Below, in pieces: positions 1 to 26,555 of a DNA stretch of 64,000 bases. The notes under the pieces were generated by a model. That model did no database searches. It worked only from the letters and a program-made list of their open reading frames with translations, and had not been told where the DNA came from. This stretch comes from Tachypleus tridentatus (Eukaryota; Arthropoda; Merostomata; Xiphosura; Limulidae), in contig NC_134830.1 in NCBI RefSeq assembly GCF_004210375.1, forward strand, positions 9,114,001 through 9,178,000, written 5' to 3'. The position numbers and the translations under genes were made by a program. Numbering within the stretch: the stretch's first letter is position 1; every line of letters begins with the position of its first letter.

Positions 1-207
1 TTCTATATTCGAGAAACAAGCAGAAAAATGGACACTAGATTCAAAGTACAACAACAAAAACACCTTCACACGTTTTCGAACCAGTGTAAATCAAATAAAC
101 GCAACATAACCATAGAAAACTCCCAGCTACTAAGTAGGGAAACAAACGTAAAATCAAATAAGCCCTACTTATACATCAACTAGAATCAAAATTAAACCAG
201 CATAAGA

Positions 208-474
208 CCCGGCATGACCAGATGGTTAAAGCACTCGATTCGCAATCCGAGGAGCGTGGGTTCTAATCCTCGTCATACCAAACATGCTTGCCCTTTCAGC
301 CGTGAGGTTGTTATAAAGTTACGGTCAATACCAGTATTCGTTGGTAAAAGAGTTGGCGGTGGGTGGTGATGACTAATTGCCTTCCCTCTAGTCTTACACT
401 GTTAAATTAGGGACAGCTGGCGCAGATAGCCATCGTGTAGCTTTGTTCGAAATTCAAAAACAAACAAACCAAAA
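208..474 (+). mobile_element. tRNA-derived SINE in unit 1
   Basis: The tRNA-like head starts CCCGGCATGACCAG with a B box near GGGTTCTAATCC. It is followed by the family body (GGCGGTGGGTGGTGATGAC, CCTTCCCTCTAGTCTTACAC) and a CAAACAAACC-rich tail. The anticodon-loop position reads TTCGCAA, where the family norm elsewhere in the window is TCGTAA (Thr CGT). Relative to other units the B-box flank reads TCCTCG for TCCCCG. Confidence 0.88.
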
Positions 475-866
475 CGCAAACGAACTTGGCAGGGTTTCAG
501 TTTGAGAGAGAGGAGAAGTCTCAAGAATTCTCTCCCCAACAGAAGTGATCAGGAACGTTGTGGTTCATCTTCGGCCCCTCACGTGAAAAATTATTTAACT
601 GTGCTTGAAATTTCGCCTTGTGTAATTTTTACTTCTTTAAGGTGCAGTGCGATGGGGCATTATAAAATTAACAGGTGAGAAAGGGGAAAGCGAAACAAAG
701 ACGGCACTGAAGAAGTGAGCCAGGCCAGAGCCCGACAAGCAGACACCAACGTGAAACGACTCGATTCAGGACTGGGCAATAGTGTTGACTTTGGCTGGGA
801 TCTAAAGATCCAATGTCTGAGATTTGGATGTGTGGGAAACGCGAGTGCCCCGCGAAACCGACTTTC

Positions 867-900
867 ACAGGACAGGCGCCGAAAGTTTTATCTGTCCTGT
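867..900. repeat. 9-bp hairpin in the GC-richer part of the unit
   Basis: ACAGGACAG and CTGTCCTGT form a perfect stem around a 16-nt loop. It is repeated in every unit, the last at about 26507-26540. There the array boundary lies only about 15 bp downstream. No RNA family recognised. Confidence 0.6.
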
Positions 901-1792
901 AATAAACAAACCAATTGTTGGGTGAAAACAAATATTTATTTAATACAACTTATCAGTCAATAATGTTTTTATTCAGTACTTTTTTCTTGTACTTACATTT
1001 TAATCGCGTTTTAGGCTAATATCATGATCGGATCTGTCATTTAGCAAAACTACTTTTAATTTGCATAAACATTACTTATGTGAATGTTCTCAAACATAAT
1101 TGTTAATTTTGTGATGGATGAGTGAAACAATTGAGCACTTACCATTAAACTTCTTGTACATATATCAAATTTAAAATGTTCACCCTTTTTAACCCTTCAA
1201 TAACAGCGTATGCATTTAATAAATTAATGCTTGCTATTTATGTCCATCTTGTTTCAAAGTTACGATAACAATTTTGGAAAACGTTACGTTCTTGACCTTT
1301 CAGTTTCACAGTATTTTACTTTTTAATATTACTGTTAATTTCAAAAGTTTATCTTGGTTACAATTTTTAACATCTTCAGTAGTATGTCTTATGGTTTTAA
1401 AGATAAAAGTTTAAATCACTTTAAATGTTTTAATTTTTTCTTAATTCAACGTCGAAACCCGTTCAGTCATTTTATCAAGCCTTTTATTTCTACCTAGAAC
1501 AACGCGAGTACCATGGATTTCTTTGTAATTAGCGCTTACAGCCATTTCTTTCTCTACACGAAACAGACGAGTAATAGTTGCGTAACATGTTAGAAGCAAA
1601 GCTTTTCCCACCATTTTCTTCGAAAGACATAATCATACTTTAATTTTACCAAATTTTTAATACATGATGCGACTCGTATGTATACAGATAAGTAATAAAT
1701 AATCCAAAAAATGAACAACCTCCTTGTAAATATGAATATGGAATTTAATTATACAAACTTAACTTTGAAATATTTATTCATTGAACTCGTGC

Positions 1793-1809
1793 ACACTGGT
1801 CACCAGTGT
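1793..1809. repeat. 17-bp palindrome in U5-unit spacer
   Basis: ACACTGGT-C-ACCAGTGT is a perfect palindrome around one base, present in each unit about 2 kb upstream of U5. Function unknown. Confidence 0.6.
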
Positions 1810-3648
1810 TGTATAGCATGTTCTCGTTATGCGTGTGCTTGAGGCGAGTAAGGTTAGAGTGATGTTTGATCGGAAATGGTTCATAAAGCCAAACGTAAGT
1901 CGGATGATCTGTACATCCCTGCTCGGGCACTTTGATCCCTGAATTGGCCCGTTTGTGTATTGTTCATGATTTATCCGACCTGCATCTCGTCGTCTCTCCT
2001 CGTCCCTTTTCTTGCTTTGCCTTCGCTTTGTTGCCTGCCACGCCTACCAGACTAGCATTTACACGAATCAAATCACACCCATCAATCTGTCTATCCTTAT
2101 TATCCATTCACTTAGTTATTTTCTGAATGTGTGGGGTTGAAGGAGGACTGTTTAGTCTTCGAGCACTGCAGGGGATTAATGTTTTGCAAGAAATATTAAT
2201 CTTATACCTAAACACCTGCCGTAATTGTGTGTGTGAAGTCAATAGTTACAGTTAAACAGCTTTGTCGCCATATAACTGTTCTTTTATTGTCCTCAGTATT
2301 TTATCCCGCTGTTTATTTCTTTAGTATGCATATCACCTCGCTTTAACCATTGCATATTGATTTATTATTGTGTTCAAATGTAAAGTTTAGTAACAGTATC
2401 TTATGCTATAAAGCCAATCACTTTGTCGTGCCTATCAAAGCGGTATTTAAAACGCCTAATCAGGATCAACATTTTATAGAAAAGCTTCAAGCCCCATTAT
2501 GGATACCGTTTGTTCAAGTACCACAACCTTCTTCAGGCTTAAATGCAGTAAACTATAAGCACAGGCAACTAACTGTACAAATGGGCGTGTCTGATTCAGC
2601 ATTAGATTGACCCGGTAAATGTATTTTAAAAAGTAACAATTACTCGAATAGTAACACTTGATGCTAAACAATGGATTTAAAAGAAAACAAGAAAAAAAAA
2701 CGTATTTCGTATAGGAGTTAGAAATTTAAGCAAAACAGTCAATTAACTTAAAATAATTTAATATTAAAACTACCAATATTTTTTAAGCAAATATGTTGAG
2801 AACTCATTGATCGATATTTAAGTTAGGTAACACTCAAGACATTACAAAGTTAAAGTGGACTTCTTGAATCACTAAAACGTAAACATAGGTTGAAGTACTT
2901 TCATGTCACGTGAACTACGGAGAATAACGCACCACGAGCAAAAGTAGTACCACCAAACTACTAAAATTAATGATTTACCGAAAACAGCGTTCAAAGAGAC
3001 TTATGTTTCTGTATTGCTTTTATAAAATTTGAGTGTACGGCAGACTTTGTTGTTTGTTCGGCCCAAATGTTTTCACACCAAACGATGTCAAACAACGATC
3101 ACGCCTTTCCGGAGAAACTTCAATTTCAGGTAGTGTTAAATGTAATTAGACTTTGAGAAATTTGGATGTTGTTCAAAGTAACGCCGTTTCACGGGCACAC
3201 GAAAGCAAATAAATACGTTTCATACAGTGTTTGGTTATTGATGTTTCTGATTATCATAAAGTTCGAAAGTAAATTTCCAGATGTTTGAGAAATTATTCAG
3301 TTATTATGATAGTTAAACAAGTAGTTTAGTGATCAGATTTAAAAGTAAAATGTGGTTTACCCCCTATTATATCTAGTGTTTTACGCTTGTCTTTAAAGGT
3401 TATTTTGGTCCTTTAATTCAGCACAAATACCTGAAACATCAGATGCGTGTAACAAGATATCAGAAGATATTAGTCTCACTCTGAACCACAGTTTTAATGT
3501 TCTCATCTAAAATGCATCGTCCCCCCCTTTTCAGACGGTAAGGATGAACTTGTCCACTATCGGGATTGTTATCACTTCGAGAAGTTTCGTACGTTTTTTA
3601 CAACACAGTTGACATTCTCTTTAAAACAAAAACAATGTAATTAAATTG

Positions 3649-3671
3649 TATGATACAAAAGTTGTATCATA
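3649..3671. repeat. Perfect inverted repeat upstream of U5
   Basis: TATGATACAA, a 3-base spacer, then TTGTATCATA, a perfect 10-bp inverted repeat 114-136 bp upstream of U5. It recurs unchanged in the other units. It could be a bound operator-like site or a small hairpin; I do not recognise it. Confidence 0.7.
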
Positions 3672-3710
3672 TTTTAAGATGTATGAAGGTGAATTCCATA
3701 TAACGACGTC

Positions 3711-3729
3711 TAATTCCTGTAACACCGAC
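3711..3729 (+). promoter_or_regulatory. Candidate PSE of U5 gene
   Basis: TAATTCCTGTAACACCGAC lies 74 to 56 bp upstream of U5 in copy 1. The same sequence sits at -74 in all six genes (7983, 12254, 16531, 20805, 25076). Arthropod snRNA promoters use a proximal sequence element in roughly this window, and the fly element begins with a similar AATTCCC core. The call rests on position and partial resemblance. Conservation between copies is not independent evidence, because the whole unit is homogenised. Confidence 0.4.
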
Positions 3730-3784
3730 GAAATCGTTTCGAAAGTGTTTGTATAAGTAGAGGCGTTTGAGAGAAATTGCTTTA

Positions 3785-3901
3785 ATGCTCAGGTTTCCCT
3801 TCATTTCGTATTAATCTTTCGCCTTTACTAAAGATTACCGTGGAGGGAACATTACAATGAGCCTATAGGCAAATTTTTGAAGTCTCACGTCGGTGAGACA
3901 A
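3785..3901 (+). ncRNA. U5: U5 spliceosomal snRNA, array copy 1
   Basis: U5 is the core RNA of the U4/U6.U5 tri-snRNP; its loop 1 holds the exon ends during both splicing steps. The start was set by alignment with the remembered human U5 5' end (same 39-nt spacing to the loop). Visible parts: GCTCA near the 5' end pairs with TGAGC after the internal loops; TTCCCT pairs with AGGGAA; TAATCTTT pairs with AAAGATTA to close loop 1; AAATTTTTGA is the Sm site; GTCTCAC(GTCG)GTGAGAC (3882-3899) is the 3' terminal hairpin. The length of about 117 nt fits the family (human 116). Oddity: loop 1 reads GCCTTTAC with three T, one short of the near-invariant GCCTTTTAC. This copy is therefore either defective or carries a homopolymer sequencing error. 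Confidence 0.95.
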
Positions 3902-3910
3902 CAATCTATG

Positions 3911-3923
3911 AATAAAAATAGAG
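3911..3923 (+). promoter_or_regulatory. 3'-box-like element after U5
   Basis: AATAAAAATAGAG starts 10 bp after the U5 3' end and resembles the metazoan snRNA 3' box (GTTT-N-AAAARNNAGA), which directs Integrator cleavage. It is present after every U5 copy. The leading GTTT is missing, so the match is partial. Confidence 0.45.
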
Positions 3924-4477
3924 TTGAGAAAGCGACTTTAGTGGTGCATGAATTTTAGCGCGAGTTGTTGCTATGATGTTTTAGTTCTCGATGAAATATT
4001 GTGTTTTGGAAAAACGTTTTTAATACTGAACATATATTTCGCATTATAACTGTTTTCATACTACGATTATGCAAACTTCAACAAATCTGGAATTAATATA
4101 AATATTGTAATCGTGTTTTATAAATATCATTTTCTCATGTAATTTTCCAAAATATTAAAGACGATAACGCAAAAATAAAAGGGCCCAGCATTAGTGAGAC
4201 AGAAATACTTGAATAAGAGGAAACGAGTACTGGGTCTGTTTTCATCTTGTAATGCGACAACTGCCACGACTTCTATATTCGAGAAACAAGCAGAAAAATG
4301 GACACTAGATTCAAAGTACAACAACAAAAACACCTTCACACGTTTTCGAACCAGTGTAAATCAAATAAACGCAACATAACCATAGAAAACTCCCAGCTAC
4401 TAAGTAGGGAAACAAACGTAAAATCAAATAAGCCCTACTTATACATCAACTAGAATCAAAATTAAACCAGCATAAGA

Positions 4478-4744
4478 CCCGGCATGACCAGATGGTTAAA
4501 GCACTCGATTCGCAATCCGAGGAGCGTGGGTTCTAATCCCCGTCATACCAAACATGCTTGCCCTTTCAGCCGTGAGGTTGTTATAAAGTTACGGTCAATA
4601 CCAGTATTCGTTGGTAAAAGAGTTGGCGGTGGGTGGTGATGACTAATTGCCTTCCCTCTAGTCTTACACTGTTAAATTAGGGACAGCTGGCGCAGATAGC
4701 CATCGTGTAGCTTTGTTCGAAATTCAAAAACAAACAAACCAAAA
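4478..4744 (+). mobile_element. tRNA-derived SINE in unit 2
   Basis: Same insertion at the same place in the unit, so it was copied with the unit rather than inserted anew. The B-box flank is TCCCCG. Confidence 0.88.
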
Positions 4745-7700
4745 CGCAAACGAACTTGGCAGGGTTTCAGTTTGGAGAGAGAGGGAGAAGTCTCAAGAAT
4801 TCTCTCCCCAACAGAAGTGATCAGGAACGTTGTGGTTCATCTTCGGCCCCTCACGTGAAAAATTATTTAACTGTGCTTGAAATTTCGCCTTGTGTAATTT
4901 TTACTTCTTTAAGGTGCAGTGCGATGGGGCATTATAAAATTAACAGGTGAGAAAGGGGAAAGCGAAACAAAGACGGCACTGAAGAAGTGAGCCAGGCCAG
5001 AGCCCGACAAGCAGACACCAACGTGAAACGACTCGATTCAGGACTGGGCAATAGTGTTGACTTTGGCTGGGATCTAAAGATCCAATGTCTGAGATTTGGA
5101 TGTGTGGGGAAACGCGAGTGCCCCGCGAAAACCGACTTTCACAGGACAGGCGCCGAAAGTTTTATCTGTCCTGTAATAAACAAACCAATTGTTGGGTGAA
5201 AACAAATATTTATTTAATACAACTTATCAGTCAATAATGTTTTATTCAGTACTTTTTTCTTGTACTTACATTTTAATCGCGTTTTAGGCTAATATCATGA
5301 TCGGATCTGTCATTTAGCAAAACTACTTTTAATTTGCATAAACATTACTTATGTGAATGTTCTCAAACATAATTGTTAATTTTGTGATGGATGAGTGAAA
5401 CAATTGAGCACTTACCATTAAACTTCTTGTACATATATCAAATTTAAAATGTTCACCCTTTTTAACCCTTCAATAACAGCGTATGCATTTAATAAATTAA
5501 TGCTTGCTATTTATGTCCATCTTGTTTCAAAGTTACGATAACAATTTTGGAAAACGTTACGTTCTTGACCTTTCAGTTTCACAGTATTTTACTTTTAATA
5601 TTACTGTTAATTTCAAAAGTTTATCTTGGTTACAATTTTAACATCTTCAGTAGTATGTCTTATGGTTTTAAAGATAAAAGTTTAAATCACTTTAAATGTT
5701 TTAATTTTTCTTAATTCAACGTCGAAACCCGTTCAGTCATTTTATCAAGCCTTTTATTTCTACCTAGAACAACGCGAGTACCATGGATTTCTTTGTAATT
5801 AGCGCTTACAGCCATTTCTTTCTCTACACGAAACAGACGAGTAATAGTTGCGTAACATGTTAGAAGCAAAGCTTTTCCCACCATTTTCTTCGAAAGACAT
5901 AATCATACTTTAATTTTACCAAATTTTTAATACATGATGCGACTCGTATGTATACAGATAAGTAATAAATAATCCAAAAAATGAACAACCTCCTTGTAAA
6001 TATGAATATGGAATTTAATTATACAAACTTAACTTTGAAATATTTATTCATTGAACTCGTGCACACTGGTCACCAGTGTTGTATAGCATGTTCTCGTTAT
6101 GCGTGTGCTTGAGGCGAGTAAGGTTAGAGTGATGTTTGATCGGAAATGGTTCATAAAGCCAAACGTAAGTCGGATGATCTGTACATCCCTGCTCGGGCAC
6201 TTTGATCCCTGAATTGGCCCGTTTGTGTATTGTTCATGATTTATCCGACCTGCATCTCGTCGTCTCTCCTCGTCCCTTTTCTTGCTTTGCCTTCGCTTTG
6301 TTGCCTGCCACGCCTACCAGACTAGCATTTACACGAATCAAATCACACCCATCAATCTGTCTATCCTTATTATCCATTCACTTAGTTATTTTCTGAATGT
6401 GTGGGGTTGAAGGAGGACTGTTTAGTCTTCGAGCACTGCAGGGGATTAATGTTTTGCAAGAAATATTAATCTTATACCTAAACACCTGCCGTAATTGTGT
6501 GTGTGAAGTCAATAGTTACAGTTAAACAGCTTTGTCGCCATATAACTGTTCTTTTATTGTCCTCAGTATTTTATCCCGCTGTTTATTTCTTTAGTATGCA
6601 TATCACCTCGCTTTAACCATTGCATATTGATTTATTATTGTGTTCAAATGTAAAGTTTAGTAACAGTATCTTATGCTATAAAGCCAATCACTTTGTCGTG
6701 CCTATCAAAGCGGTATTTAAAACGCCTAATCAGGATCAACATTTTATAGAAAAGCTTCAAGCCCCATTATGGATACCGTTTGTTCAAGTACCACAACCTT
6801 CTTCAGGCTTAAATGCAGTAAACTATAAGCACAGGCAACTAACTGTACAAATGGGCGTGTCTGATTCAGCATTAGATTGACCCGGTAAATGTATTTTAAA
6901 AAGTAACAATTACTCGAATAGTAACACTTGATGCTAAACAATGGATTTAAAAGAAAACAAGAAAAAAAAAACGTATTTCGTATAGAGTTAGAAATTTAAG
7001 CAAAACAGTCAATTAACTTAAAATAATTTAATATTAAAACTACCAATATTTTTTAAGCAAATATGTTGAGAACTCATTGATCGATATTTAAGTTAGGTAA
7101 CACTCAAGACATTACAAAGTTAAAGTGGACTTTTTGAATCACTAAAACGTAAACATAGGTTGAAGTACTTTCATGTCACGTGAACTACGGAGAATAACGC
7201 ACCACGAGCAAAAGTAGTACCACCAAACTACTAAAATTAATGATTTACCGAAAACAGCGTTCAAAGAGACTTATGTTTCTGTATTGCTTTTATAAAATTT
7301 GAGTGTACGGCAGACTTTGTTGTTTGTTCGGCCCAAATGTTTTCACACCAAACGATGTCAAACAACGATCACGCCTTTCCGGAGAAACTTCAATTTCAGG
7401 TAGTGTTAAATGTAATTAGACTTTGAGAAATTTGGATGTTGTTCAAAGTAACGCCGTTTCACGGGCACACGAAAGCAAATAAATACGTTTCATACAGTGT
7501 TTGGTTATTGATGTTTCTGATTATCATAAAGTTCGAAAGTAAATTTCCAGATGTTTGAGAAATTATTCAGTTATTATGATAGTTAAACAAGTAGTTTAGT
7601 GATCAGATTTAAAAGTAAAATGTGGTTTACCCCCTATTATATCTAGTGTTTTACGCTTGTCTTTAAAGGTTATTTTGGTCCTTTAATTCAGCACAAATAC

Positions 7701-8056
7701 CTGAAACATCAGATGCGTGTAACAAGATATCAGAAGATATTAGTCTCACTCTGAACCACAGTTTTAATGTTCTCATCTAAAAATGCATCGTCCCCCCCCT
7801 TTTCAGACGGTAAGGATGAACTTGTCCACTATCGGGATTGTTATCACTTCGAGAAGTTTCGTACGTTTTTTACAACACAGTTGACATTCTCTTTAAAACA
7901 AAAACAATGTAATTAAATTGTATGATACAAAAGTTGTATCATATTTTAAGATGTATGAAGGTGAATTCCATATAACGACGTCTAATTCCTGTAACACCGA
8001 CGAAATCGTTTCGAAAGTGTTTGTATAAGTAGAGGCGTTTGAGAGAAATTGCTTTA

Positions 8057-8175
8057 ATGCTCAGGTTTCCCTTCATTTCGTATTAATCTTTCGCCTTTTA
8101 CTAAAGATTACCGTGGAGGGAAACATTACAATGAGCCTATAGGCAAATTTTTGAAGTCTCACGTCGGTGAGACAA
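8057..8175 (+). ncRNA. U5: U5 spliceosomal snRNA, array copy 2
   Basis: Loop 1 is canonical (CGCCTTTTACT, 11 nt) inside the perfect TAATCTTT/AAAGATTA stem. The Sm site has five T and the 3' hairpin is intact. The only peculiarity is one extra A in the GGAGGGAAACATT stretch on the 3' side of the long stem. This falls in a run of A and may be an assembly length error. Its upstream and downstream control motifs are the same as in copy 1. It is a good candidate for an expressed gene. Confidence 0.97.
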
Positions 8176-8751
8176 CAATCTATGAATAAAAATAGAGTTG
8201 AGAAAGCGACTTTAGTGGTGCATGAATTTTAGCGCGAGTTGTTGCTATGATGTTTTAGTTCTCGATGAAATATTGTGTTTTGGAAAAACGTTTTTAATAC
8301 TGAACATATATTTCGCATTATAACTGTTTTCATACTACGATTATGCAAACTTCAACAAATCTGGAATTAATATAAATATTGTAATCGTGTTTTATAAATA
8401 TCATTTTCTCATGTAATTTTCCAAAATATTAAAGACGATAACGCAAAAATAAAAGGGCCCAGCATTAGTGAGACAGAAATACTTGAATAAGAGGAAACGA
8501 GTACTGGGTCTGTTTTCATCTTGTAATGCGACAACTGCCACGACTTCTATATTCGAGAAACAAGCAGAAAAATGGACACTAGATTCAAAGTACAACAACA
8601 AAAACACCTTCACACGTTTTCGAACCAGTGTAAATCAAATAAACGCAACATAACCATAGAAAACTCCCAGCTACTAAGTAGGGAAACAAACGTAAAATCA
8701 AATAAGCCCTACTTATACATCAACTAGAATCAAAATTAAACCAGCATAAGA

Positions 8752-9018
8752 CCCGGCATGACCAGATGGTTAAAGCACTCGATTCGCAATCCGAGGAGCG
8801 TGGGTTCTAATCCCCGTCATACCAAACATGCTTGCCCTTTCAGCCGTGAGGTTGTTATAAAGTTACGGTCAATACCAGTATTCGTTGGTAAAAGAGTTGG
8901 CGGTGGGTGGTGATGACTAATTGCCTTCCCTCTAGTCTTACACTGTTAAATTAGGGACAGCTGGCGCAGATAGCCATCGTGTAGCTTTGTTCGAAATTCA
9001 AAAACAAACAAACCAAAA
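8752..9018 (+). mobile_element. tRNA-derived SINE in unit 3
   Basis: Orthologous copy of the unit SINE, full length, no copy-specific change noted. Confidence 0.88.
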
Positions 9019-12000
9019 CGCAAACGAACTTGGCAGGGTTTCAGTTTGAGAGAGAGGAGAAGTCTCAAGAATTCTCTCCCCAACAGAAGTGATCAGGAAC
9101 GTTGTGGTTCATCTTCGGCCCCTCACGTGAAAAATTATTTAACTGTGCTTGAAATTTCGCCTTGTGTAATTTTACTTCTTTAAGGTGCAGTGCGATGGGG
9201 CATTATAAAATTAACAGGTGAGAAAGGGGAAAGCGAAACAAAGACGGCACTGAAGAAGTGAGCCAGGCCAGAGCCCGACAAGCAGACACCAACGTGAAAC
9301 GACTCGATTCAGGACTGGGCAATAGTGTTGACTTTGGCTGGGATCTAAAGATCAATGTCTGAGATTTGGATGTGTGGGGAAACGCGAGTGCCCGCGAAAA
9401 CCGACTTTCACAGGACAGGCGCCGAAAGTTTTATCTGTCCTGTAATAAACAAACCAATTGTTGGGTGAAAACAAATATTTATTTAATACAACTTATCAGT
9501 CAATAATGTTTTTATTCAGTACTTTTTTCTTGTACTTACATTTTAATCGCGTTTTAGGCTAATATCATGATCGGATCTGTCATTTAGCAAAACTACTTTT
9601 AATTTGCATAAACATTACTTATGTGAATGTTCTCAAACATAATTGTTAATTTTGTGATGGATGAGTGAAACAATTGAGCACTTACCATTAAACTTCTTGT
9701 ACATATATCAAATTTAAAATGTTCACCCTTTTTAACCCTTCAATAACAGCGTATGCATTTAATAAATTAATGCTTGCTATTTATGTCCATCTTGTTTCAA
9801 AGTTACGATAACAATTTTGGAAAACGTTACGTTCTTGACCTTTCAGTTTCACAGTATTTTACTTTTTAATATTACTGTTAATTTCAAAAGTTTATCTTGG
9901 TTACAATTTTTAACATCTTCAGTAGTATGTCTTATGGTTTTAAAGATAAAAGTTTAAATCACTTTAAATGTTTTAATTTTTCTTAATTCAACGTCGAAAC
10001 CCGTTCAGTCATTTTATCAAGCCTTTTATTTCTACCTAGAACAACGCGAGTACCATGGATTTCTTTGTAATTAGCGCTTACAGCCATTTCTTTCTCTACA
10101 CGAAACAGACGAGTAATAGTTGCGTAACATGTTAGAAGCAAAGCTTTTCCCACCATTTTCTTCGAAAGACATAATCATACTTTAATTTTACCAAATTTTT
10201 AATACATGATGCGACTCGTATGTATACAGATAAGTAATAAATAATCCAAAAAATGAACAACCTCCTTGTAAATATGAATATGGAATTTAATTATACAAAC
10301 TTAACTTTGAAATATTTATTCATTGAACTCGTGCACACTGGTCACCAGTGTTGTATAGCATGTTCTCGTTATGCGTGTGCTTGAGGCGAGTAAGGTTAGA
10401 GTGATGTTTGATCGGAAATGGTTCATAAAGCCAAACGTAAGTCGGATGATCTGTACATCCCTGCTCGGGCACTTTGATCCCTGAATTGGCCCGTTTGTGT
10501 ATTGTTCATGATTTATCCGACCTGCATCTCGTCGTCTCTCCTCGTCCCTTTTCTTGCTTTGCCTTCGCTTTGTTGCCTGCCACGCCTACCAGACTAGCAT
10601 TTACACGAATCAAATCACACCCATCAATCTGTCTATCCTTATTATCCATTCACTTAGTTATTTTCTGAATGTGTGGGGTTGAAGGAGGACTGTTTAGTCT
10701 TCGAGCACTGCAGGGATTAATGTTTTGCAAGAAATATTAATCTTATACCTAAACACCTGCCGTAATTGTGTGTGTGAAGTCAATAGTTACAGTTAAACAG
10801 CTTTGTCGCCATATAACTGTTCTTTTATTGTCCTCAGTATTTTATCCCGCTGTTTATTTCTTTAGTATGCATATCACCTCGCTTTAACCATTGCATATTG
10901 ATTTATTATTGTGTTCAAATGTAAAGTTTAGTAACAGTATCTTATGCTATAAAGCCAATCACTTTGTCGTGCCTATCAAAGCGGTATTTAAAACGCCTAA
11001 TCAGGATCAACATTTTATAGAAAAGCTTCAAGCCCCATTATGGATACCGTTTGTTCAAGTACCACAACCTTCTTCAGGCTTAAATGCAGTAAACTATAAG
11101 CACAGGCAACTAACTGTACAAATGGGCGTGTCTGATTCAGCATTAGATTGACCCGGTAAATGTATTTTAAAAAGTAACAATTACTCGAATAGTAACACTT
11201 GATGCTAAACAATGGATTTAAAAAAGAAAACAAGAAAAAAAAACGTATTTCGTATAGGAGTTAGAAATTTAAGCAAAACAGTCAATTAACTTAAAATAAT
11301 TTAATATTAAAACTACCAATATTTTTTAAGCAAATATGTTGAGAACTCATTGATCGATATTTAAGTTAGGTAACACTCAAGACATTACAAAGTTAAAGTG
11401 GACTTTTTGAATCACTAAAACGTAAACATAGGTTGAAGTACTTTCATGTCACGTGAACTACGGAGAATAACGCACCACGAGCAAAAGTAGTACCACCAAA
11501 CTACTAAAATTAATGATTTACCGAAAACAGCGTTCAAAGAGACTTATGTTTCTGTATTGCTTTTATAAAATTTGAGTGTACGGCAGACTTTGTTGTTTGT
11601 TCGGCCCAAATGTTTTCACACCAAACGATGTCAAACAACGATCACGCCTTTCCGGAGAAACTTCAATTTCAGGTAGTGTTAAATGTAATTAGACTTTGAG
11701 AAATTTGGATGTTGTTCAAAGTAACGCCGTTTCACGGGCACACGAAAGCAAATAAATACGTTTCATACAGTGTTTGGTTATTGATGTTTCTGATTATCAT
11801 AAAGTTCGAAAGTAAATTTCCAGATGTTTGAGAAATTATTCAGTTATTATGATAGTTAAACAAGTAGTTTAGTGATCAGATTTAAAAGTAAAATGTGGTT
11901 TACCCCCTATTATATCTAGTGTTTTACGCTTGTCTTTAAAGGTTATTTTGGTCCTTTAATTCAGCACAAATACCTGAAACATCAGATGCGTGTAACAAGA

Positions 12001-12327
12001 TATCAGAAGATATTAGTCTCACTCTGAACCACAGTTTTAATGTTCTCATCTAAAATGCATCGTCCCCCCCTTTTCAGACGGTAAGGATGAACTTGTCCAC
12101 TATCGGGATTGTTATCACTTCGAGAAGTTTCGTACGTTTTTTACAACACAGTTGACATTCTCTTTAAAACAAAAACAATGTAATTAAATTGTATGATACA
12201 AAAGTTGTATCATATTTTAAGATGTATGAAGGTGAATTCCATATAACGACGTCTAATTCCTGTAACACCGACGAAATCGTTTCGAAAGTGTTTGTATAAG
12301 TAGAGGCGTTTGAGAGAAATTGCTTTA

Positions 12328-12445
12328 ATGCTCAGGTTTCCCTTCATTTCGTATTAATCTTTCGCCTTTACTAAAGATTACCGTGGAGGGAACATTACAA
12401 TGAGCCTATAGGCAAATTTTTTGAAGTCTCACGTCGGTGAGACAA
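12328..12445 (+). ncRNA. U5: U5 spliceosomal snRNA, array copy 3
   Basis: All stems and the 3' hairpin are present. Loop 1 again has only three T (GCCTTTAC), as in copy 1, while the Sm run has six T instead of five. Both are one-base changes in T runs, so read errors are a plausible cause. If real, the shortened loop would be expected to impair exon alignment, because loop 1 length and sequence are nearly fixed across eukaryotes. Confidence 0.95.
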
Positions 12446-13288: not shown

Positions 13289-16200
13289 CGCAAACGAACT
13301 TGGCAGGGTTTCAGTTTGGAGAGAGAGGGAGAAGTCTCAAGAATTCTCTCCCCAACAGAAGTGATCAGGAACGTTGTGGTTCATCTTCGGCCCCTCACGT
13401 GAAAAATTATTTAACTGTGCTTGAAATTTCGCCTTGTGTAATTTTTACTTCTTTAAGGTGCAGTGCGATGGGGCATTATAAAATTAACAGGTGAGAAAGG
13501 GGAAAGCGAAACAAAGACGGCACTGAAGAAGTGAGCCAGGCCAGAGCCCGACAAGCAGACACCAACGTGAAACGACTCGATTCAGGACTGGGCAATAGTG
13601 TTGACTTTGGCTGGGATCTAAAGATCAATGTCTGAGATTTGGATGTGTGGGGAAACGCGAGTGCCCGCGAAAACCGACTTTCACAGGACAGGCGCCGAAA
13701 GTTTTATCTGTCCTGTAATAAACAAACCAATTGTTGGGTGAAAACAAATATTTATTTAATACAACTTATCAGTCAATAATGTTTTTATTCAGTACTTTTT
13801 TCTTGTACTTACATTTTAATCGCGTTTTAGGCTAATATCATGATCGGATCTGTCATTTAGCAAAACTACTTTTAATTTGCATAAACATTACTTATGTGAA
13901 TGTTCTCAAACATAATTGTTAATTTTGTGATGGATGAGTGAAACAATTGAGCACTTACCATTAAACTTCTTGTACATATATCAAATTTAAAATGTTCACC
14001 CTTTTTAACCCTTCAATAACAGCGTATGCATTTAATAAATTAATGCTTGCTATTTATGTCCATCTTGTTTCAAAGTTACGATAACAATTTTGGAAAACGT
14101 TACGTTCTTGACCTTTCAGTTTCACAGTATTTTACTTTTAATATTACTGTTAATTTCAAAAGTTTATCTTGGTTACAATTTTAACATCTTCAGTAGTATG
14201 TCTTATGGTTTTAAAGATAAAAGTTTAAATCACTTTAAATGTTTTAATTTTTCTTAATTCAACGTCGAAACCCGTTCAGTCATTTTATCAAGCCTTTTAT
14301 TTCTACCTAGAACAACGCGAGTACCATGGATTTCTTTGTAATTAGCGCTTACAGCCATTTCTTTCTCTACACGAAACAGACGAGTAATAGTTGCGTAACA
14401 TGTTAGAAGCAAAGCTTTTCCCACCATTTTCTTCGAAAGACATAATCATACTTTAATTTTACCAAATTTTTAATACATGATGCGACTCGTATGTATACAG
14501 ATAAGTAATAAATAATCCAAAAAATGAACAACCTCCTTGTAAATATGAATATGGAATTTAATTATACAAACTTAACTTTGAAATATTTATTCATTGAACT
14601 CGTGCACACTGGTCACCAGTGTTGTATAGCATGTTCTCGTTATGCGTGTGCTTGAGGCGAGTAAGGTTAGAGTGATGTTTGATCGGAAATGGTTCATAAA
14701 GCCAAACGTAAGTCGGATGATCTGTACATCCCTGCTCGGGCACTTTGATCCCTGAATTGGCCCGTTTGTGTATTGTTCATGATTTATCCGACCTGCATCT
14801 CGTCGTCTCTCCTCGTCCCTTTTCTTGCTTTGCCTTCGCTTTGTTGCCTGCCACGCCTACCAGACTAGCATTTACACGAATCAAATCACACCCATCAATC
14901 TGTCTATCCTTATTATCCATTCACTTAGTTATTTTCTGAATGTGTGGGGTTGAAGGAGGACTGTTTAGTCTTCGAGCACTGCAGGGGATTAATGTTTTGC
15001 AAGAAATATTAATCTTATACCTAAACACCTGCCGTAATTGTGTGTGTGAAGTCAATAGTTACAGTTAAACAGCTTTGTCGCCATATAACTGTTCTTTTAT
15101 TGTCCTCAGTATTTTATCCCGCTGTTTATTTCTTTAGTATGCATATCACCTCGCTTTAACCATTGCATATTGATTTATTATTGTGTTCAAATGTAAAGTT
15201 TAGTAACAGTATCTTATGCTATAAAGCCAATCACTTTGTCGTGCCTATCAAAGCGGTATTTAAAACGCCTAATCAGGATCAACATTTTATAGAAAAGCTT
15301 CAAGCCCCATTATGGATACCGTTTGTTCAAGTACCACAACCTTCTTCAGGCTTAAATGCAGTAAACTATAAGCACAGGCAACTAACTGTACAAATGGGCG
15401 TGTCTGATTCAGCATTAGATTGACCCGGTAAATGTATTTTAAAAAGTAACAATTACTCGAATAGTAACACTTGATGCTAAACAATGGATTTAAAAAGAAA
15501 ACAAGAAAAAAAAAACGTATTTCGTATAGGAGTTAGAAATTTAAGCAAAAACAGTCAATTAACTTAAAATAATTTAATATTAAAACTACCAATATTTTTT
15601 AAGCAAATATGTTGAGAACTCATTGATCGATATTTAAGTTAGGTAACACTCAAGACATTACAAAGTTAAAGTGGACTTTTTGAATCACTAAAACGTAAAC
15701 ATAGGTTGAAGTACTTTCATGTCACGTGAACTACGGAGAATAACGCACCACGAGCAAAAGTAGTACCACCAAACTACTAAAATTAATGATTTACCGAAAA
15801 CAGCGTTCAAAGAGACTTATGTTTCTGTATTGCTTTTATAAAATTTGAGTGTACGGCAGACTTTGTTGTTTGTTCGGCCCAAATGTTTTTCACACCAAAC
15901 GATGTCAAACAACGATCACGCCTTTCCGGAGAAACTTCAATTTCAGGTAGTGTTAAATGTAATTAGACTTTGAGAAATTTGGATGTTGTTCAAAGTAACG
16001 CCGTTTCACGGGCACACGAAAGCAAATAAATACGTTTCATACAGTGTTTGGTTATTGATGTTTCTGATTATCATAAAGTTCGAAAGTAAATTTCCAGATG
16101 TTTGAGAAATTATTCAGTTATTATGATAGTTAAACAAGTAGTTTAGTGATCAGATTTAAAAGTAAAATGTGGTTTACCCCCTATTATATCTAGTGTTTTA

Positions 16201-16604
16201 CGCTTGTCTTTAAAGGTTATTTTGGTCCTTTAATTCAGCACAAATACCTGAAACATCAGATGCGTGTAACAAGATATCAGAAGATATTAGTCTCACTCTG
16301 AACCACAGTTTTAATGTTCTCATCTAAAAATGCATCGTCCCCCCCCTTTTCAGACGGTAAGGATGAACTTGTCCACTATCGGGATTGTTATCACTTCGAG
16401 AAGTTTCGTACGTTTTTTACAACACAGTTGACATTCTCTTTAAAAACAAAAACAATGTAATTAAATTGTATGATACAAAAGTTGTATCATATTTTAAGAT
16501 GTATGAAGGTGAATTCCATATAACGACGTCTAATTCCTGTAACACCGACGAAATCGTTTCGAAAGTGTTTGTATAAGTAGAGGCGTTTGAGAGAAATTGC
16601 TTTA

Positions 16605-16723
16605 ATGCTCAGGTTTCCCTTCATTTCGTATTAATCTTTCGCCTTTTACTAAAGATTACCGTGGAGGGGAACATTACAATGAGCCTATAGGCAAATTTTT
16701 GAAGTCTCACGTCGGTGAGACAA
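16605..16723 (+). ncRNA. U5: U5 spliceosomal snRNA, array copy 4
   Basis: Canonical loop 1 (GCCTTTTAC), five-T Sm site and intact 3' hairpin. It has one extra G in the GGAGGGGAACATT strand of the long stem, shared with copy 5. The shared change suggests a real sub-variant spread between adjacent units, or the same assembly bias. Confidence 0.97.
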
Positions 16724-17299
16724 CAATCTATGAATAAAAATAGAGTTGAGAAAGCGACTTTAGTGGTGCATGAATTTTAGCGCGAGTTGTTGCTATGATG
16801 TTTTAGTTCTCGATGAAATATTGTGTTTTGGAAAAACGTTTTTAATACTGAACATATATTTCGCATTATAACTGTTTTCATACTACGATTATGCAAACTT
16901 CAACAAATCTGGAATTAATATAAATATTGTAATCGTGTTTTATAAATATCATTTTCTCATGTAATTTTCCGAAATATTAAAGACGATAACGCAAAAATAA
17001 AAGGGCCCAGCATTAGTGAGACAGAAATACTTGAATAAGAGGAAACGAGTACTGGGTCTGTTTTCATCTTGTAATGCGACAACTGCCACGACTTCTATAT
17101 TCGAGAAACAAGCAGAAAAATGGACACTAGATTCAAAGTACAACAACAAAAACACCTTCACACGTTTTCGAACCAGTGTAAATCAAATAAACGCAACATA
17201 ACCATAGAAAACTCCCAGCTACTAAGTAGGGAAACAAACGTAAAATCAAATAAGCCCTACTTATACATCAACTAGAATCAAAATTAAACCAGCATAAGA

Positions 17300-17566
17300 C
17301 CCGGCATGACCAGATGGTTAAAGCACTCGATTCGCAATCCGAGGAGCGTGGGTTCTAATCCCCGTCATACCAAACATGCTTGCCCTTTCAGCCGTGAGGT
17401 TGTTATAAAGTTACGGTCAATACCAGTATTCGTTGGTAAAAGAGTTGGCGGTGGGTGGTGATGACTAATTGCCTTCCCTCTAGTCTTACACTGTTAAATT
17501 AGGGACAGCTGGCGCAGATAGCCATCGTGTAGCTTTGTTCGAAATTCAAAAACAAACAAACCAAAA
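17300..17566 (+). mobile_element. tRNA-derived SINE in unit 5
   Basis: Orthologous copy of the unit SINE, full length. Confidence 0.88.
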
Positions 17567-20500
17567 CGCAAACGAACTTGGCAGGGTTTCAGTTTGGAGA
17601 GAGAGGGAGAAGTCTCAAGAATTCTCTCCCCAACAGAAGTGATCAGGAACGTTGTGGTTCATCTTCGGCCCCTCACGTGAAAAATTATTTAACTGTGCTT
17701 GAAATTTCGCCTTGTGTAATTTTACTTCTTTAAGGTGCAGTGCGATGGGGCATTATAAAATTAACAGGTGAGAAAGGGGAAAGCGAAACAAAGACGGCAC
17801 TGAAGAAGTGAGCCAGGCCAGAGCCCGACAAGCAGACACCAACGTGAAACGACTCGATTCAGGACTGGGCAATAGTGTTGACTTTGGCTGGGATCTAAAG
17901 ATCCAATGTCTGAGATTTGGATGTGTGGGGAAACGCGAGTGCCCGCGAAAACCGACTTTCACAGGACAGGCGCCGAAAGTTTTATCTGTCCTGTAATAAA
18001 CAAACCAATTGTTGGGTGAAAACAAATATTTATTTAATACAACTTATCAGTCAATAATGTTTTTATTCAGTACTTTTTTCTTGTACTTACATTTTAATCG
18101 CGTTTTAGGCTAATATCATGATCGGATCTGTCATTTAGCAAAACTACTTTTAATTTGCATAAACATTACTTATGTGAATGTTCTCAAACATAATTGTTAA
18201 TTTTGTGATGGATGAGTGAAACAATTGAGCACTTACCATTAAACTTCTTGTACATATATCAAATTTAAAATGTTCACCCTTTTAACCCTTCAATAACAGC
18301 GTATGCATTTAATAAATTAATGCTTGCTATTTATGTCCATCTTGTTTCAAAGTTACGATAACAATTTTGGAAAACGTTACGTTCTTGACCTTTCAGTTTC
18401 ACAGTATTTTACTTTTAATATTACTGTTAATTTCAAAAGTTTATCTTGGTTACAATTTTAACATCTTCAGTAGTATGTCTTATGGTTTTAAAGATAAAAG
18501 TTTAAATCACTTTAAATGTTTTAATTTTTCTTAATTCAACGTCGAAACCCGTTCAGTCATTTTATCAAGCCTTTTATTTCTACCTAGAACAACGCGAGTA
18601 CCATGGATTTCTTTGTAATTAGCGCTTACAGCCATTTCTTTCTCTACACGAAACAGACGAGTAATAGTTGCGTAACATGTTAGAAGCAAAGCTTTTCCCA
18701 CCATTTTCTTCGAAAGACATAATCATACTTTAATTTTACCAAATTTTTAATACATGATGCGACTCGTATGTATACAGATAAGTAATAAATAATCCAAAAA
18801 ATGAACAACCTCCTTGTAAATATGAATATGGAATTTAATTATACAAACTTAACTTTGAAATATTTATTCATTGAACTCGTGCACACTGGTCACCAGTGTT
18901 GTATAGCATGTTCTCGTTATGCGTGTGCTTGAGGCGAGTAAGGTTAGAGTGATGTTTGATCGGAAATGGTTCATAAAGCCAAACGTAAGTCGGATGATCT
19001 GTACATCCCTGCTCGGGCACTTTGATCCCTGAATTGGCCCGTTTGTGTATTGTTCATGATTTATCCGACCTGCATCTCGTCGTCTCTCCTCGTCCCTTTT
19101 CTTGCTTTGCCTTCGCTTTGTTGCCTGCCACGCCTACCAGACTAGCATTTACACGAATCAAATCACACCCATCAATCTGTCTATCCTTATTATCCATTCA
19201 CTTAGTTATTTTCTGAATGTGTGGGGTTGAAGGAGGACTGTTTAGTCTTCGAGCACTGCAGGGGATTAATGTTTTGCAAGAAATATTAATCTTATACCTA
19301 AACACCTGCCGTAATTGTGTGTGTGAAGTCAATAGTTACAGTTAAACAGCTTTGTCGCCATATAACTGTTCTTTTTATTGTCCTCAGTATTTTATCCCGC
19401 TGTTTATTTCTTTAGTATGCATATCACCTCGCTTTAACCATTGCATATTGATTTATTATTGTGTTCAAATGTAAAGTTTAGTAACAGTATCTTATGCTAT
19501 AAAGCCAATCACTTTGTCGTGCCTATCAAAGCGGTATTTAAAACGCCTAATCAGGATCAACATTTTATAGAAAAGCTTCAAGCCCCATTATGGATACCGT
19601 TTGTTCAAGTACCACAACCTTCTTCAGGCTTAAATGCAGTAAACTATAAGCACAGGCAACTAACTGTACAAATGGGCGTGTCTGATTCAGCATTAGATTG
19701 ACCCGGTAAATGTATTTTAAAAAGTAACAATTACTCGAATAGTAACACTTGATGCTAAACAATGGATTTAAAAAGAAAACAAGAAAAAAAAACGTATTTC
19801 GTATAGGAGTTAGAAATTTAAGCAAAAACAGTCAATTAACTTAAAATAATTTAATATTAAAACTACCAATATTTTTTAAGCAAATATGTTGAGAACTCAT
19901 TGATCGATATTTAAGTTAGGTAACACTCAAGACATTACAAAGTTAAAGTGGACTTTTTGAATCACTAAAACGTAAACATAGGTTGAAGTACTTTCATGTC
20001 ACGTGAACTACGGAGAATAACGCACCACGAGCAAAAGTAGTACCACCAAACTACTAAAATTAATGATTTACCGAAAACAGCGTTCAAAGAGACTTATGTT
20101 TCTGTATTGCTTTTTATAAAATTTGAGTGTACGGCAGACTTTGTTGTTTGTTCGGCCCAAATGTTTTCACACCAAACGATGTCAAACAACGATCACGCCT
20201 TTCCGGAGAAACTTCAATTTCAGGTAGTGTTAAATGTAATTAGACTTTGAGAAATTTGGATGTTGTTCAAAGTAACGCCGTTTCACGGGCACACGAAAGC
20301 AAATAAATACGTTTCATACAGTGTTTGGTTATTGATGTTTCTGATTATCATAAAGTTCGAAAGTAAATTTCCAGATGTTTGAGAAATTATTCAGTTATTA
20401 TGATAGTTAAACAAGTAGTTTAGTGATCAGATTTAAAAGTAAAATGTGGTTTACCCCCTATTATATCTAGTGTTTTACGCTTGTCTTTAAAGGTTATTTT

Positions 20501-20878
20501 GGTCCTTTAATTCAGCACAAATACCTGAAACATCAGATGCGTGTAACAAGATATCAGAAGATATTAGTCTCACTCTGAACCACAGTTTTAATGTTCTCAT
20601 CTAAAATGCATCGTCCCCCCCTTTTCAGACGGTAAGGATGAACTTGTCCACTATCGGGATTGTTATCACTTCGAGAAGTTTCGTACGTTTTTTACAACAC
20701 AGTTGACATTCTCTTTAAAACAAAAACAATGTAATTAAATTGTATGATACAAAAGTTGTATCATATTTTAAGATGTATGAAGGTGAATTCCATATAACGA
20801 CGTCTAATTCCTGTAACACCGACGAAATCGTTTCGAAAGTGTTTGTATAAGTAGAGGCGTTTGAGAGAAATTGCTTTA

Positions 20879-20997
20879 ATGCTCAGGTTTCCCTTCATTT
20901 CGTATTAATCTTTCGCCTTTTACTAAAGATTACCGTGGAGGGGAACATTACAATGAGCCTATAGGCAAATTTTTGAAGTCTCACGTCGGTGAGACAA
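20879..20997 (+). ncRNA. U5: U5 spliceosomal snRNA, array copy 5
   Basis: Same sequence as copy 4 over the gene, as far as can be read: canonical loop 1, GGAGGGGAACATT on the 3' stem strand, Sm site AAATTTTTGA and hairpin GTCTCAC(GTCG)GTGAGAC. Confidence 0.97.
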
Positions 20998-21573
20998 CAA
21001 TCTATGAATAAAAATAGAGTTGAGAAAGCGACTTTAGTGGTGCATGAATTTTAGCGCGAGTTGTTGCTATGATGTTTTAGTTCTCGATGAAATATTGTGT
21101 TTTGGAAAAACGTTTTTAATACTGAACATATATTTCGCATTATAACTGTTTTCATACTACGATTATGCAAACTTCAACAAATCTGGAATTAATATAAATA
21201 TTGTAATCGTGTTTTATAAATATCATTTTCTCATGTAATTTTCCAAAATATTAAAGACGATAACGCAAAAATAAAAGGGCCCAGCATTAGTGAGACAGAA
21301 ATACTTGAATAAGAGGAAACGAGTACTGGGTCTGTTTTCATCTTGTAATGCGACAACTGCCACGACTTCTATATTCGAGAAACAAGCAGAAAAATGGACA
21401 CTAGATTCAAAGTACAACAACAAAAACACCTTCACACGTTTTCGAACCAGTGTAAATCAAATAAACGCAACATAACCATAGAAAACTCCCAGCTACTAAG
21501 TAGGGAAACAAACGTAAAATCAAATAAGCCCTACTTATACATCAACTAGAATCAAAATTAAACCAGCATAAGA

Positions 21574-21839
21574 CCCGGCATGACCAGATGGTTAAAGCAC
21601 TCGATTCGCAATCCGAGGAGCGTGGGTTCTAATCCCCGTCATACCAAACATGCTTGCCCTTTCAGCCGTGAGGTTGTTATAAAGTTACGGTCAATACCAG
21701 TATTCGTTGGTAAAGAGTTGGCGGTGGGTGGTGATGACTAATTGCCTTCCCTCTAGTCTTACACTGTTAAATTAGGGACAGCTGGCGCAGATAGCCATCG
21801 TGTAGCTTTGTTCGAAATTCAAAAACAAACAAACCAAAA
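21574..21839 (+). mobile_element. tRNA-derived SINE in unit 6
   Basis: Orthologous copy, one A shorter in the GGTAAAGAGTT stretch. Confidence 0.88.
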
Positions 21840-24800
21840 CGCAAACGAACTTGGCAGGGTTTCAGTTTGGAGAGAGAGGGAGAAGTCTCAAGAATTCTCT
21901 CCCCAACAGAAGTGATCAGGAACGTTGTGGTTCATCTTCGGCCCCTCACGTGAAAAATTATTTAACTGTGCTTGAAATTTCGCCTTGTGTAATTTTTACT
22001 TCTTTAAGGTGCAGTGCGATGGGGCATTATAAAATTAACAGGTGAGAAAGGGGAAAGCGAAACAAAGACGGCACTGAAGAAGTGAGCCAGGCCAGAGCCC
22101 GACAAGCAGACACCAACGTGAAACGACTCGATTCAGGACTGGGCAATAGTGTTGACTTTGGCTGGGATCTAAAGATCCAATGTCTGAGATTTGGATGTGT
22201 GGGAAACGCGAGTGCCCCGCGAAAACCGACTTTCACAGGACAGGCGCCGAAAGTTTTATCTGTCCTGTAATAAACAAACCAATTGTTGGGTGAAAACAAA
22301 TATTTATTTAATACAACTTATCAGTCAATAATGTTTTTATTCAGTACTTTTTTCTTGTACTTACATTTTAATCGCGTTTTAGGCTAATATCATGATCGGA
22401 TCTGTCATTTAGCAAAACTACTTTTAATTTGCATAAACATTACTTATGTGAATGTTCTCAAACATAATTGTTAATTTTGTGATGGATGAGTGAAACAATT
22501 GAGCACTTACCATTAAACTTCTTGTACATATATCAAATTTAAAATGTTCACCCTTTTAACCCTTCAATAACAGCGTATGCATTTAATAAATTAATGCTTG
22601 CTATTTATGTCCATCTTGTTTCAAAGTTACGATAACAATTTTGGAAAACGTTACGTTCTTGACCTTTCAGTTTCACAGTATTTTACTTTTTAATATTACT
22701 GTTAATTTCAAAAGTTTATCTTGGTTACAATTTTAACATCTTCAGTAGTATGTCTTATGGTTTTAAAGATAAAAGTTTAAATCACTTTAAATGTTTTAAT
22801 TTTTCTTAATTCAACGTCGAAACCCGTTCAGTCATTTTATCAAGCCTTTTATTTCTACCTAGAACAACGCGAGTACCATGGATTTCTTTGTAATTAGCGC
22901 TTACAGCCATTTCTTTCTCTACACGAAACAGACGAGTAATAGTTGCGTAACATGTTAGAAGCAAAGCTTTTCCCACCATTTTCTTCGAAAGACATAATCA
23001 TACTTTAATTTTACCAAATTTTAATACATGATGCGACTCGTATGTATACAGATAAGTAATAAATAATCCAAAAAATGAACAACCTCCTTGTAAATATGAA
23101 TATGGAATTTAATTATACAAACTTAACTTTGAAATATTTATTCATTGAACTCGTGCACACTGGTCACCAGTGTTGTATAGCATGTTCTCGTTATGCGTGT
23201 GCTTGAGGCGAGTAAGGTTAGAGTGATGTTTGATCGGAAATGGTTCATAAAGCCAAACGTAAGTCGGATGATCTGTACATCCCTGCTCGGGCACTTTGAT
23301 CCCTGAATTGGCCCGTTTGTGTATTGTTCATGATTTATCCGACCTGCATCTCGTCGTCTCTCCTCGTCCCTTTTCTTGCTTTGCCTTCGCTTTGTTGCCT
23401 GCCACGCCTACCAGACTAGCATTTACACGAATCAAATCACACCCATCAATCTGTCTATCCTTATTATCCATTCACTTAGTTATTTTCTGAATGTGTGGGG
23501 TTGAAGGAGGACTGTTTAGTCTTCGAGCACTGCAGGGGATTAATGTTTTGCAAGAAATATTAATCTTATACCTAAACACCTGCCGTAATTGTGTGTGTGA
23601 AGTCAATAGTTACAGTTAAACAGCTTTGTCGCCATATAACTGTTCTTTTATTGTCCTCAGTATTTTATCCCGCTGTTTATTTCTTTAGTATGCATATCAC
23701 CTCGCTTTAACCATTGCATATTGATTTATTATTGTGTTCAAATGTAAAGTTTAGTAACAGTATCTTATGCTATAAAGCCAATCACTTTGTCGTGCCTATC
23801 AAAGCGGTATTTAAAACGCCTAATCAGGATCAACATTTTATAGAAAAGCTTCAAGCCCCATTATGGATACCGTTTGTTCAAGTACCACAACCTTCTTCAG
23901 GCTTAAATGCAGTAAACTATAAGCACAGGCAACTAACTGTACAAATGGGCGTGTCTGATTCAGCATTAGATTGACCCGGTAAATGTATTTTAAAAGTAAC
24001 AATTACTCGAATAGTAACACTTGATGCTAAACAATGGATTTAAAAAGAAAACAAGAAAAAAAAACGTATTTCGTATAGAAGTTAGAAATTTAAGCAAAAC
24101 AGTCAATTAACTTAAAATAATTTAATATTAAAACTACCAATATTTTTAAGCAAATATGTTGAGAACTCATTGATCGATATTTAAGTTAGGTAACACTCAA
24201 GACATTACAAAGTTAAAGTGGACTTTTGAATCACTAAAACGTAAACATAGGTTGAAGTACTTTCATGTCACGTGAACTACGGAGAATAACGCACCACGAG
24301 CAAAAGTAGTACCACCAAACTACTAAAATTAATGATTTACCGAAAACAGCGTTCAAAGAGACTTATGTTTCTGTATTGCTTTTATAAAATTTGAGTGTAC
24401 GGCAGACTTTGTTGTTTGTTCGGCCCAAATGTTTTCACACCAAACGATGTCAAACAACGATCACGCCTTTCCGGAGAAACTTCAATTTCAGGTAGTGTTA
24501 AATGTAATTAGACTTTGAGAAATTTGGATGTTGTTCAAAGTAACGCCGTTTCACGGGCACACGAAAGCAAATAAATACGTTTCATACAGTGTTTGGTTAT
24601 TGATGTTTCTGATTATCATAAAGTTCGAAAGTAAATTTCCAGATGTTTGAGAAATTATTCAGTTATTATGATAGTTAAACAAGTAGTTTAGTGATCAGAT
24701 TTAAAAGTAAAATGTGGTTTACCCCCTATTATATCTAGTGTTTTACGCTTGTCTTTAAAGGTTATTTTGGTCCTTTAATTCAGCACAAATACCTGAAACA

Positions 24801-25149
24801 TCAGATGCGTGTAACAAGATATCAGAAGATATTAGTCTCACTCTGAACCACAGTTTTAATGTTCTCATCTAAAAATGCATCGTCCCTCCCCTTTTCAGAC
24901 GGTAAGGATGAACTTGTCCACGGTCGGGATTGTTATCATTTCGAGAAGTTTCGTACGTTTTTTACAACACAGTTGACATTCTGTTTAAAAACAAAAACAA
25001 TGTAATAAAATTGTATGATACAAAAGTTGTATCATATTTTAAGATGTATGAAGGTGAATTCCATATAACGACGTCTAATTCCTGTAACACCGACGAAATC
25101 GTTTCGAAAGTGTTTGTATAAGTAGAGGCGTTTGATAGAAATTGCTTTA

Positions 25150-25267
25150 ATGCTCAGGTTTCCCTTCATTTCGTATTAATCTTTCGCCTTTTACTAAAGA
25201 TTACCGTGGAGGGAACATTACAATGAGCCTATAGGCAAATTTTTGAAGTCTCACGTTGGTGAGACAA
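25150..25267 (+). ncRNA. U5: U5 spliceosomal snRNA, array copy 6 (edge copy)
   Basis: Last U5 before the right array boundary. Loop 1 is canonical. The 3' hairpin loop is GTTG instead of GTCG, with the 7-bp stem unchanged, so folding is preserved. There is a single substitution just upstream of the gene (TTTGATAGAA for TTTGAGAGAA). Its unit carries clearly more substitutions than the internal units, as expected for an array-edge copy that is less often homogenised. It still looks functional. Confidence 0.96.
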
Positions 25268-25843
25268 CAATCTATGAATAAAAATAGAGTTGAGAAAGCG
25301 ACTTTAGTGGTGCATGAATTTTAGTGCGAGTTGTTGCTATGATGTTTTAGTTCTCGATGAAATATTGTGTTTTGGAAAAACGTTTTTAATACTGAACATA
25401 TATTTCGCGTTATAACTGTTTTCATACTACGATTATGCAAACTTCAACAAATCTGGAATTAATATAAATATTGTAATCGTGTTTTATAAATATCATTTTC
25501 TCATGTAATTTTCCAAAATATTAAAGACGATAACGCAAAAATAAAAGGGCCCAGCATTAGTGAGACAGAAATACTTGAATAAGAGGAAACGAGTACTGGG
25601 TCTGTTTTCATCTTGTAATGCGACAACTGCCACGACTTCTATATTCGAGAAACAAGCAGAAAAATGGACACTAGATTCAAAGTACAACAACAAAAACACC
25701 TTCACACGTTTTCGAACCAGTGTAAATCAAATAAACGCAACATAACCATAGAAAACTCCCAGATACTAAGTAGGGAAACAAACGTAAAATCAAATAAGCC
25801 CTACTTATACATCAACTAGAATCAAAATTAAACCAGCATAAGA

Positions 25844-26110
25844 CCCGGCATGACCAGATGGTTAAAGCACTCGATTCGCAATCCGAGGAGCGTGGGTTCT
25901 AATCCCCGTCATACCAAACATGCTTGCCCTTTCAGCCGTGAGGTTGTTATAAAGTTACGGTCAATACCAGTATTCGTTGGTAAAAGAGTTGGCGGTGGGT
26001 GGTGATGACTAATTGCCTTCCCTCTAGTCTTACACTGTTAAATTAGGGACAGCTGGCGCAGATAGCCATCGTGTAGCTTTGTTCGAAATTCAAAAACAAA
26101 CAAACCAAAA
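25844..26110 (+). mobile_element. tRNA-derived SINE in terminal partial unit
   Basis: Orthologous copy in the truncated last unit, which ends about 445 bp further on. Confidence 0.88.
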
Positions 26111-26555
26111 CGCAAACGAACTTGGCAGGGTTTCAGTTTGGAGAGAGAGGGAGAAGTCTCAAGAATTCTCTCCCCAACAGAAGTGATCAGGAACGTTGTG
26201 GTTCATCTTCGGCCCCTCACGTGAAAAATTATTTAACTGTGCTTGAAATTTCGCCTTGTGTAATTTTTACTTCTTTAAGGTGCAGTGCGATGGGGCATTA
26301 TAAAATTAACAGGTGAGAAAGGGGAAAGCGAAACAAAGACGGCACTGAAGAAGTGAGCCAGGCCAGAGCCCGACAAGCAGACACCAACGTGAAACGACTC
26401 GATTCAGGACTGGGCAATAGTGTTGCCTTTGGCTGGGATCTAAAGATCCAATGTCTGAGATTTGGATGTGTGGGGAAACGCGAGTGCCCCGCGAAAACCG
26501 ACTTTCACAGGACAGGCGCCGAAAGTTTTATCTGTCCTGTAATAAACAAACCAAT

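Follow-up and report, generated by a model that had tools for sequence, protein, structure and literature searches.

Organization of the Tandem Array

The DNA analysed here, a stretch of 64 kb referred to below as the window, opens with a head-to-tail tandem array of genes for U5, a core splicing RNA that binds Sm proteins and positions exons through its loop. According to self-BLAST and to the alignment of the units, the array (positions 1-26555) consists of six complete units, which start at positions 1, 4271, 8545, 12815, 17093 and 21367 and measure 4270, 4274, 4270, 4278, 4274 and 4270 bp, respectively, followed by a partial unit of 919 bp. The units share 99.2-99.6% identity with each other, and the off-diagonals of the self-BLAST comparison occur at one to six unit lengths. 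The right end of the array is located at position 26555, where it is followed by a clean single-copy flank unrelated to the unit, and the left end lies beyond the edge of the window. An earlier note on this DNA had proposed a tandem organization with a unit of macrosatellite size, a single U5 gene in each complete unit of 4.27 kb and a ratio of unit to gene of about 36. All of these proposals are borne out, the organization and the unit size by self-BLAST and the unit alignment, the single gene per unit by the Rfam model RF00020 together with self-BLAST, and the ratio by the measured lengths (4274/118). The coordinates of the features discussed below are collected in Table 1.

Table 1. Coordinates of the U5 array and of its component features in the window.
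Feature	Positions	Strand	Description	Evidence
Tandem array	1..26555	+	Six complete units and one partial unit	Self-BLAST and unit alignment
U5 copy 1	3785..3900	+	Loop one T short (GCCTTTAC); stem 1 without one G	RF00020, 81.3 bits
U5 copy 2	8057..8174	+	Intact; U-A in place of the stem-1 U-G pair	RF00020, 97.6 bits
U5 copy 3	12328..12444	+	Loop one T short; stem 1 without one G; Sm site with one additional T	RF00020, 81.1 bits
90 bp preceding copy 4 (representative)	16515..16604	+	Presumed promoter region	Identical in five units
U5 copy 4	16605..16722	+	Intact	RF00020, 97.8 bits; fold z -3.96
Candidate snRNA 3' box core, AAAAATAGA	16736..16744	+	13 bases past the gene; in all units	AAARNNAGA
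tRNA-derived SINE (representative unit)	17300..17564	+	265 bp	Dispersed relatives; tRNA-like head
U5 copy 5	20879..20996	+	Intact; identical to copy 4	RF00020, 97.8 bits
Divergent patch	24887..25409	+	10 substitutions private to the last complete unit, in the promoter region and the U5 gene	Substitution clustering
U5 copy 6	25150..25266	+	Loop intact; stem 1 without one G; C to T in the 3'-hairpin loop	RF00020, 91.2 bits
Partial seventh unit	25637..26555	+	Right edge of the array; carries no U5 gene	Self-BLAST, unit alignment

The U5 Genes

A search of the entire 64 kb with Rfam returned exactly six matches above cut-off, all of them to RF00020 (gathering score 40 bits), full length and on the plus strand, with scores of 81.1-97.8 bits and E-values ranging from 2.7e-12 to 4.3e-16. 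The check with the U5 covariance model suggested in the earlier note, run here within the window, accordingly matched 6 of the 6 copies end to end, and neither Rfam nor BLAST revealed any further U5 copy outside the array within the 64-kb window. The U5 fold beats shuffled sequences by a z-score of about -4, none of 200 shuffles being as stable. A pattern built on the U5 core found no match in viral and prokaryotic contigs.

Depending on the copy, the genes as assembled are either intact or depart from the intact form by a few single-base changes. The loop GCCUUUUAC is closed by an 8-bp stem in four of the six copies, and it is one T short in those starting at 3785 and 12328, which contain GCCTTTAC (aligned as GCC-TTTAC) instead of GCCTTTTAC. 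The statement of the earlier note that the exact loop GCCTTTTAC occurs in every unit has consequently to be restricted to copies 2, 4, 5 and 6, and its companion statement, an exact 8-bp loop-closing stem, stands in so far as the stem is intact in all six copies, but in copies 1 and 3 it closes a loop shorter by one base. The two remaining structural elements that had been pointed out, the Sm site and the 3' hairpin, were recovered throughout, the site AATTTTTG occurring in 6/6 copies (with an extra T at 12328) and the hairpin being intact in all six. The alignment assigns the G missing from copies 1, 3 and 6 to the 3' strand of stem 1.

The 90 bp located upstream of the gene are the same in five units and differ by one base in the last one; the whole unit is likewise conserved. 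This presumed promoter region contains a TATA-like motif, TATAAG, at -33 to -28 (16572-16577 in copy 4). The PSE expected upstream was not identified, the Drosophila-type (PSEA) consensus being unmatched in place. Downstream of the gene, the motif AAAAATAGA is a candidate core of an snRNA-type 3' box. Of the 3'-box consensus only this core is fitted, GTTT being unmatched, and AAARNNAGA occurs only three times per unit when both strands are counted.

Spacer and Surrounding Sequences

Besides the U5 gene, the unit contains a tRNA-derived SINE, which occupies the same position in every complete unit, about 0.7 kb downstream of the start of the U5 gene. Seven relatives of this element, with 67-89% identity, are dispersed on both strands between positions 40810 and 53422. 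This shared position means that the element entered before the present units spread. No match to the SINE pattern occurred in viral contigs. A match to a plastid UTR family, which overlaps the tRNA-like head of the SINE on the minus strand, was discarded as lying far below the cut-off of that family. With respect to other genes, no U1, U2 or 5S gene was found in the unit by Rfam, and a permissive Rfam search of positions 1-28000 brought up no further RNA gene that was credible. The presence of a protein-coding gene in the unit was also considered and rejected, the open reading frames extending over 80-90 amino acids and the two of them that were tested having no Pfam match.

To the right of the array, the segment 26556-26760 contains CTGAAGATAAGCTGGGAAGGTCGAAACGTTG, which is, presumably, reminiscent of the hammerhead-like ends of Penelope-type elements, and gives no Rfam match up to an E-value of 1. 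Further downstream, the window comprises a 4.5-kb minisatellite (33049-37554) that has a strong AT skew and repeats a 37-bp unit (AGTGTAGGGCTCTTTCCTTCCAGCTACTTTTCATCCAG) about 121 times, a satellite (61056-62322) made of 18 copies of a 70-bp unit that are 95% alike, and two Tc1/mariner-type transposase fragments (53865-54488 and 62663-63283; Pfam HTH_Tnp_Tc3_2). A protein kinase exon occurs on the minus strand at 44843-45208 and is closest, among solved structures, to the PAK1-type kinases; as regards the origin of the DNA, this PAK-like exon in the flank shows a eukaryote only.

Differences between the Units

The six complete units differ from one another by 15 clean substitutions and by 31 indel columns. 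Of the latter, 27 lie in homopolymers of at least four bases, although such runs account for only 11% of the unit. Eleven indel columns divide units 1-4 into two pairs; nine of these columns, including that of the U5 loop, group units 1 and 3 versus units 2 and 4, and no clean substitution separates these two pairs, whereas units 5 and 6 combine the two indel patterns in mosaic fashion. Because real divergence should give substitutions too, most of the length differences, including those in U5, are read as consensus errors. In this respect, the single bases lost from the T4 run of the U5 loop and from the G4 run of stem 1 are most probably homopolymer errors that a long-read assembly left uncorrected and not the marks of true pseudogenes, and units 1 and 3 were probably corrected differently from units 2 and 4 in the assembly. 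As a more general warning, U5 genes residing in arrays of this type are easily mis-assembled, so that apparent loop variants need accurate reads.

The clean substitutions are distributed otherwise, 11 of the 15 being private to the last complete unit. Ten of these private substitutions are confined to a 525-bp stretch around the U5 gene of that unit and form a divergent patch (Table 1), the clustering of which was not equalled in tightness by any of 100,000 random placements. Such a patch would be expected of a unit that lies at the edge and is less well homogenised, and likewise of a tract converted from a different U5 copy; reads misassigned from another U5 locus may also be its source. The concentration of substitutions in the last complete unit fits a weaker homogenisation at the edge of the array. 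The divergence of the edge unit argues against the array being one unit merely repeated by the assembler.

Nature of the Array

The explanation which best accounts for these observations, and which we hold with considerable confidence, is a genuine chromosomal array of U5 genes, probably from an animal, organized like human RNU2 and with a spacer that has taken up a SINE. Every unit would function as an independent RNA polymerase II transcription unit for U5, separate transcription of each intact copy being expected because each unit has an upstream region and a putative 3' box to itself. Unequal crossing-over and gene conversion would keep the units alike, and the unit at the edge would be homogenised less, so that its divergent patch persists. 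The number of copies that are fully intact as assembled, three out of six (copies 2, 4 and 5), counts against this explanation, as does the negative outcome of the search for a PSE.

The expansion of one or two real units into six by the assembler is an unlikely alternative, in which the predominance of homopolymer-length indels, typical of consensus error, and the patterns shared by units 1 and 3 and by units 2 and 4, as though the same pair of units had been entered two times, would find a ready cause. However, the units are also told apart by the 15 clean substitutions, 11 of which belong to the last complete one, the array stops part-way through a unit, where unrelated sequence takes over, and the collapse of repeats is a commoner assembly error than their expansion, so that the true number of units may as well be higher than the number assembled.

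It seems quite improbable that the array is real but composed of two classes, functional U5 units alternating with units of a decayed or variant type whose loop is shorter by one base. The absence of any clean substitution splitting the two classes, which differ in homopolymer and dinucleotide lengths only, would hardly result from divergence alone, and the mosaic character of units 5 and 6 is equally difficult to reconcile with such an alternation, although the pairing of units 1 and 3 versus 2 and 4 in nine of the 11 evenly split indel columns, with the U5 loop column among them, is what it would produce. The conservation of the loop, in addition, suggests that shortening it would harm U5.

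Still less credence is given to an inactive, U5-derived macrosatellite, which would include a U5 pseudogene by chance. The large spacer, the SINE in the unit and the imperfect state, as assembled, of three of the six copies could be understood in this way, but the match to the gene is of full length and comprises the Sm site and the 3' hairpin, the flanks are conserved with a 3'-box-like motif in place, which would be expected to be missing from retrotransposed U5 pseudogenes, and copies 4 and 5 are both intact and identical. The least likely of all these readings is that the short-loop copies are real, with the loop GCCUUUAC, and give a variant RNA that is made and used or tolerated in a natural two-class U5 population.

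Comparison with Known snRNA Gene Arrays

Maternal snRNA arrays are known in zebrafish. The array described here is a further example of the known tandem arrays of snRNA genes and is not new in kind. The closest counterpart, with which the earlier note had already compared the array, is human RNU2 at 17q21, a 6.1-kb unit containing one U2 gene, five Alus and an LTR and repeated in 6-82 copies (PMC3795722). The likeness holds, both arrays being made of near-perfect tandem units of several kb, with one snRNA gene, no other coding sequence and a SINE-bearing spacer. They differ by the gene, U5 instead of U2, and by the length of the unit, 4.27 instead of 6.1 kb. Papers cited in the same source argue that RNU2 is homogenised by unequal crossing-over and gene conversion (PMC3795722).

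The arrangement had also been claimed as distinctive for U5, a claim that is weakened by the tandem U5 genes known in fishes and grasshoppers. In the fishes studied, tandem U2-U5 units are the common situation and U1, U2 and U5 are linked in soles; the U5 genes of the tandem units each have an annotated PSE and 3' box, and the unit obtained by PCR measures about 1 kb (PMC3464664). A tandemly repetitive linkage in which the U1, U2 and U5 snRNA genes take part is also cited for fish in another paper (PMC8167085). The U5 genes of the present array are similarly arranged in tandem units but, unlike those of the fish units, which are short and shared with U2, they occur alone in 4.27 kb. Among arthropods, the morabine grasshoppers offer another parallel, U5 having been counted as one of their tandem multigene families along with U1, U2 and U6, on the basis of short reads and a U5 seed (PMC7754599). 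Concerted evolution is a general trait of snRNA families (PMC4291461). The U5 sets of Drosophila, with seven distinguishable genes (PMC4291461), and of human, with five named genes (PMC7073466), are multi-copy as well but devoid of a long-unit array.

A U5-only array of long units was found in none of the open-access papers searched, and the association of U5 alone with a long spacer may be what is distinctive here. Provided that the array is real and represents the main source of U5, it would constitute a second long-unit snRNA array, devoted to a different snRNA and probably belonging to an invertebrate. The ideas developed for RNU2, namely on the rate of homogenisation, the divergence of the edges and the role of the repeats residing in the spacer, would then become testable on U5.
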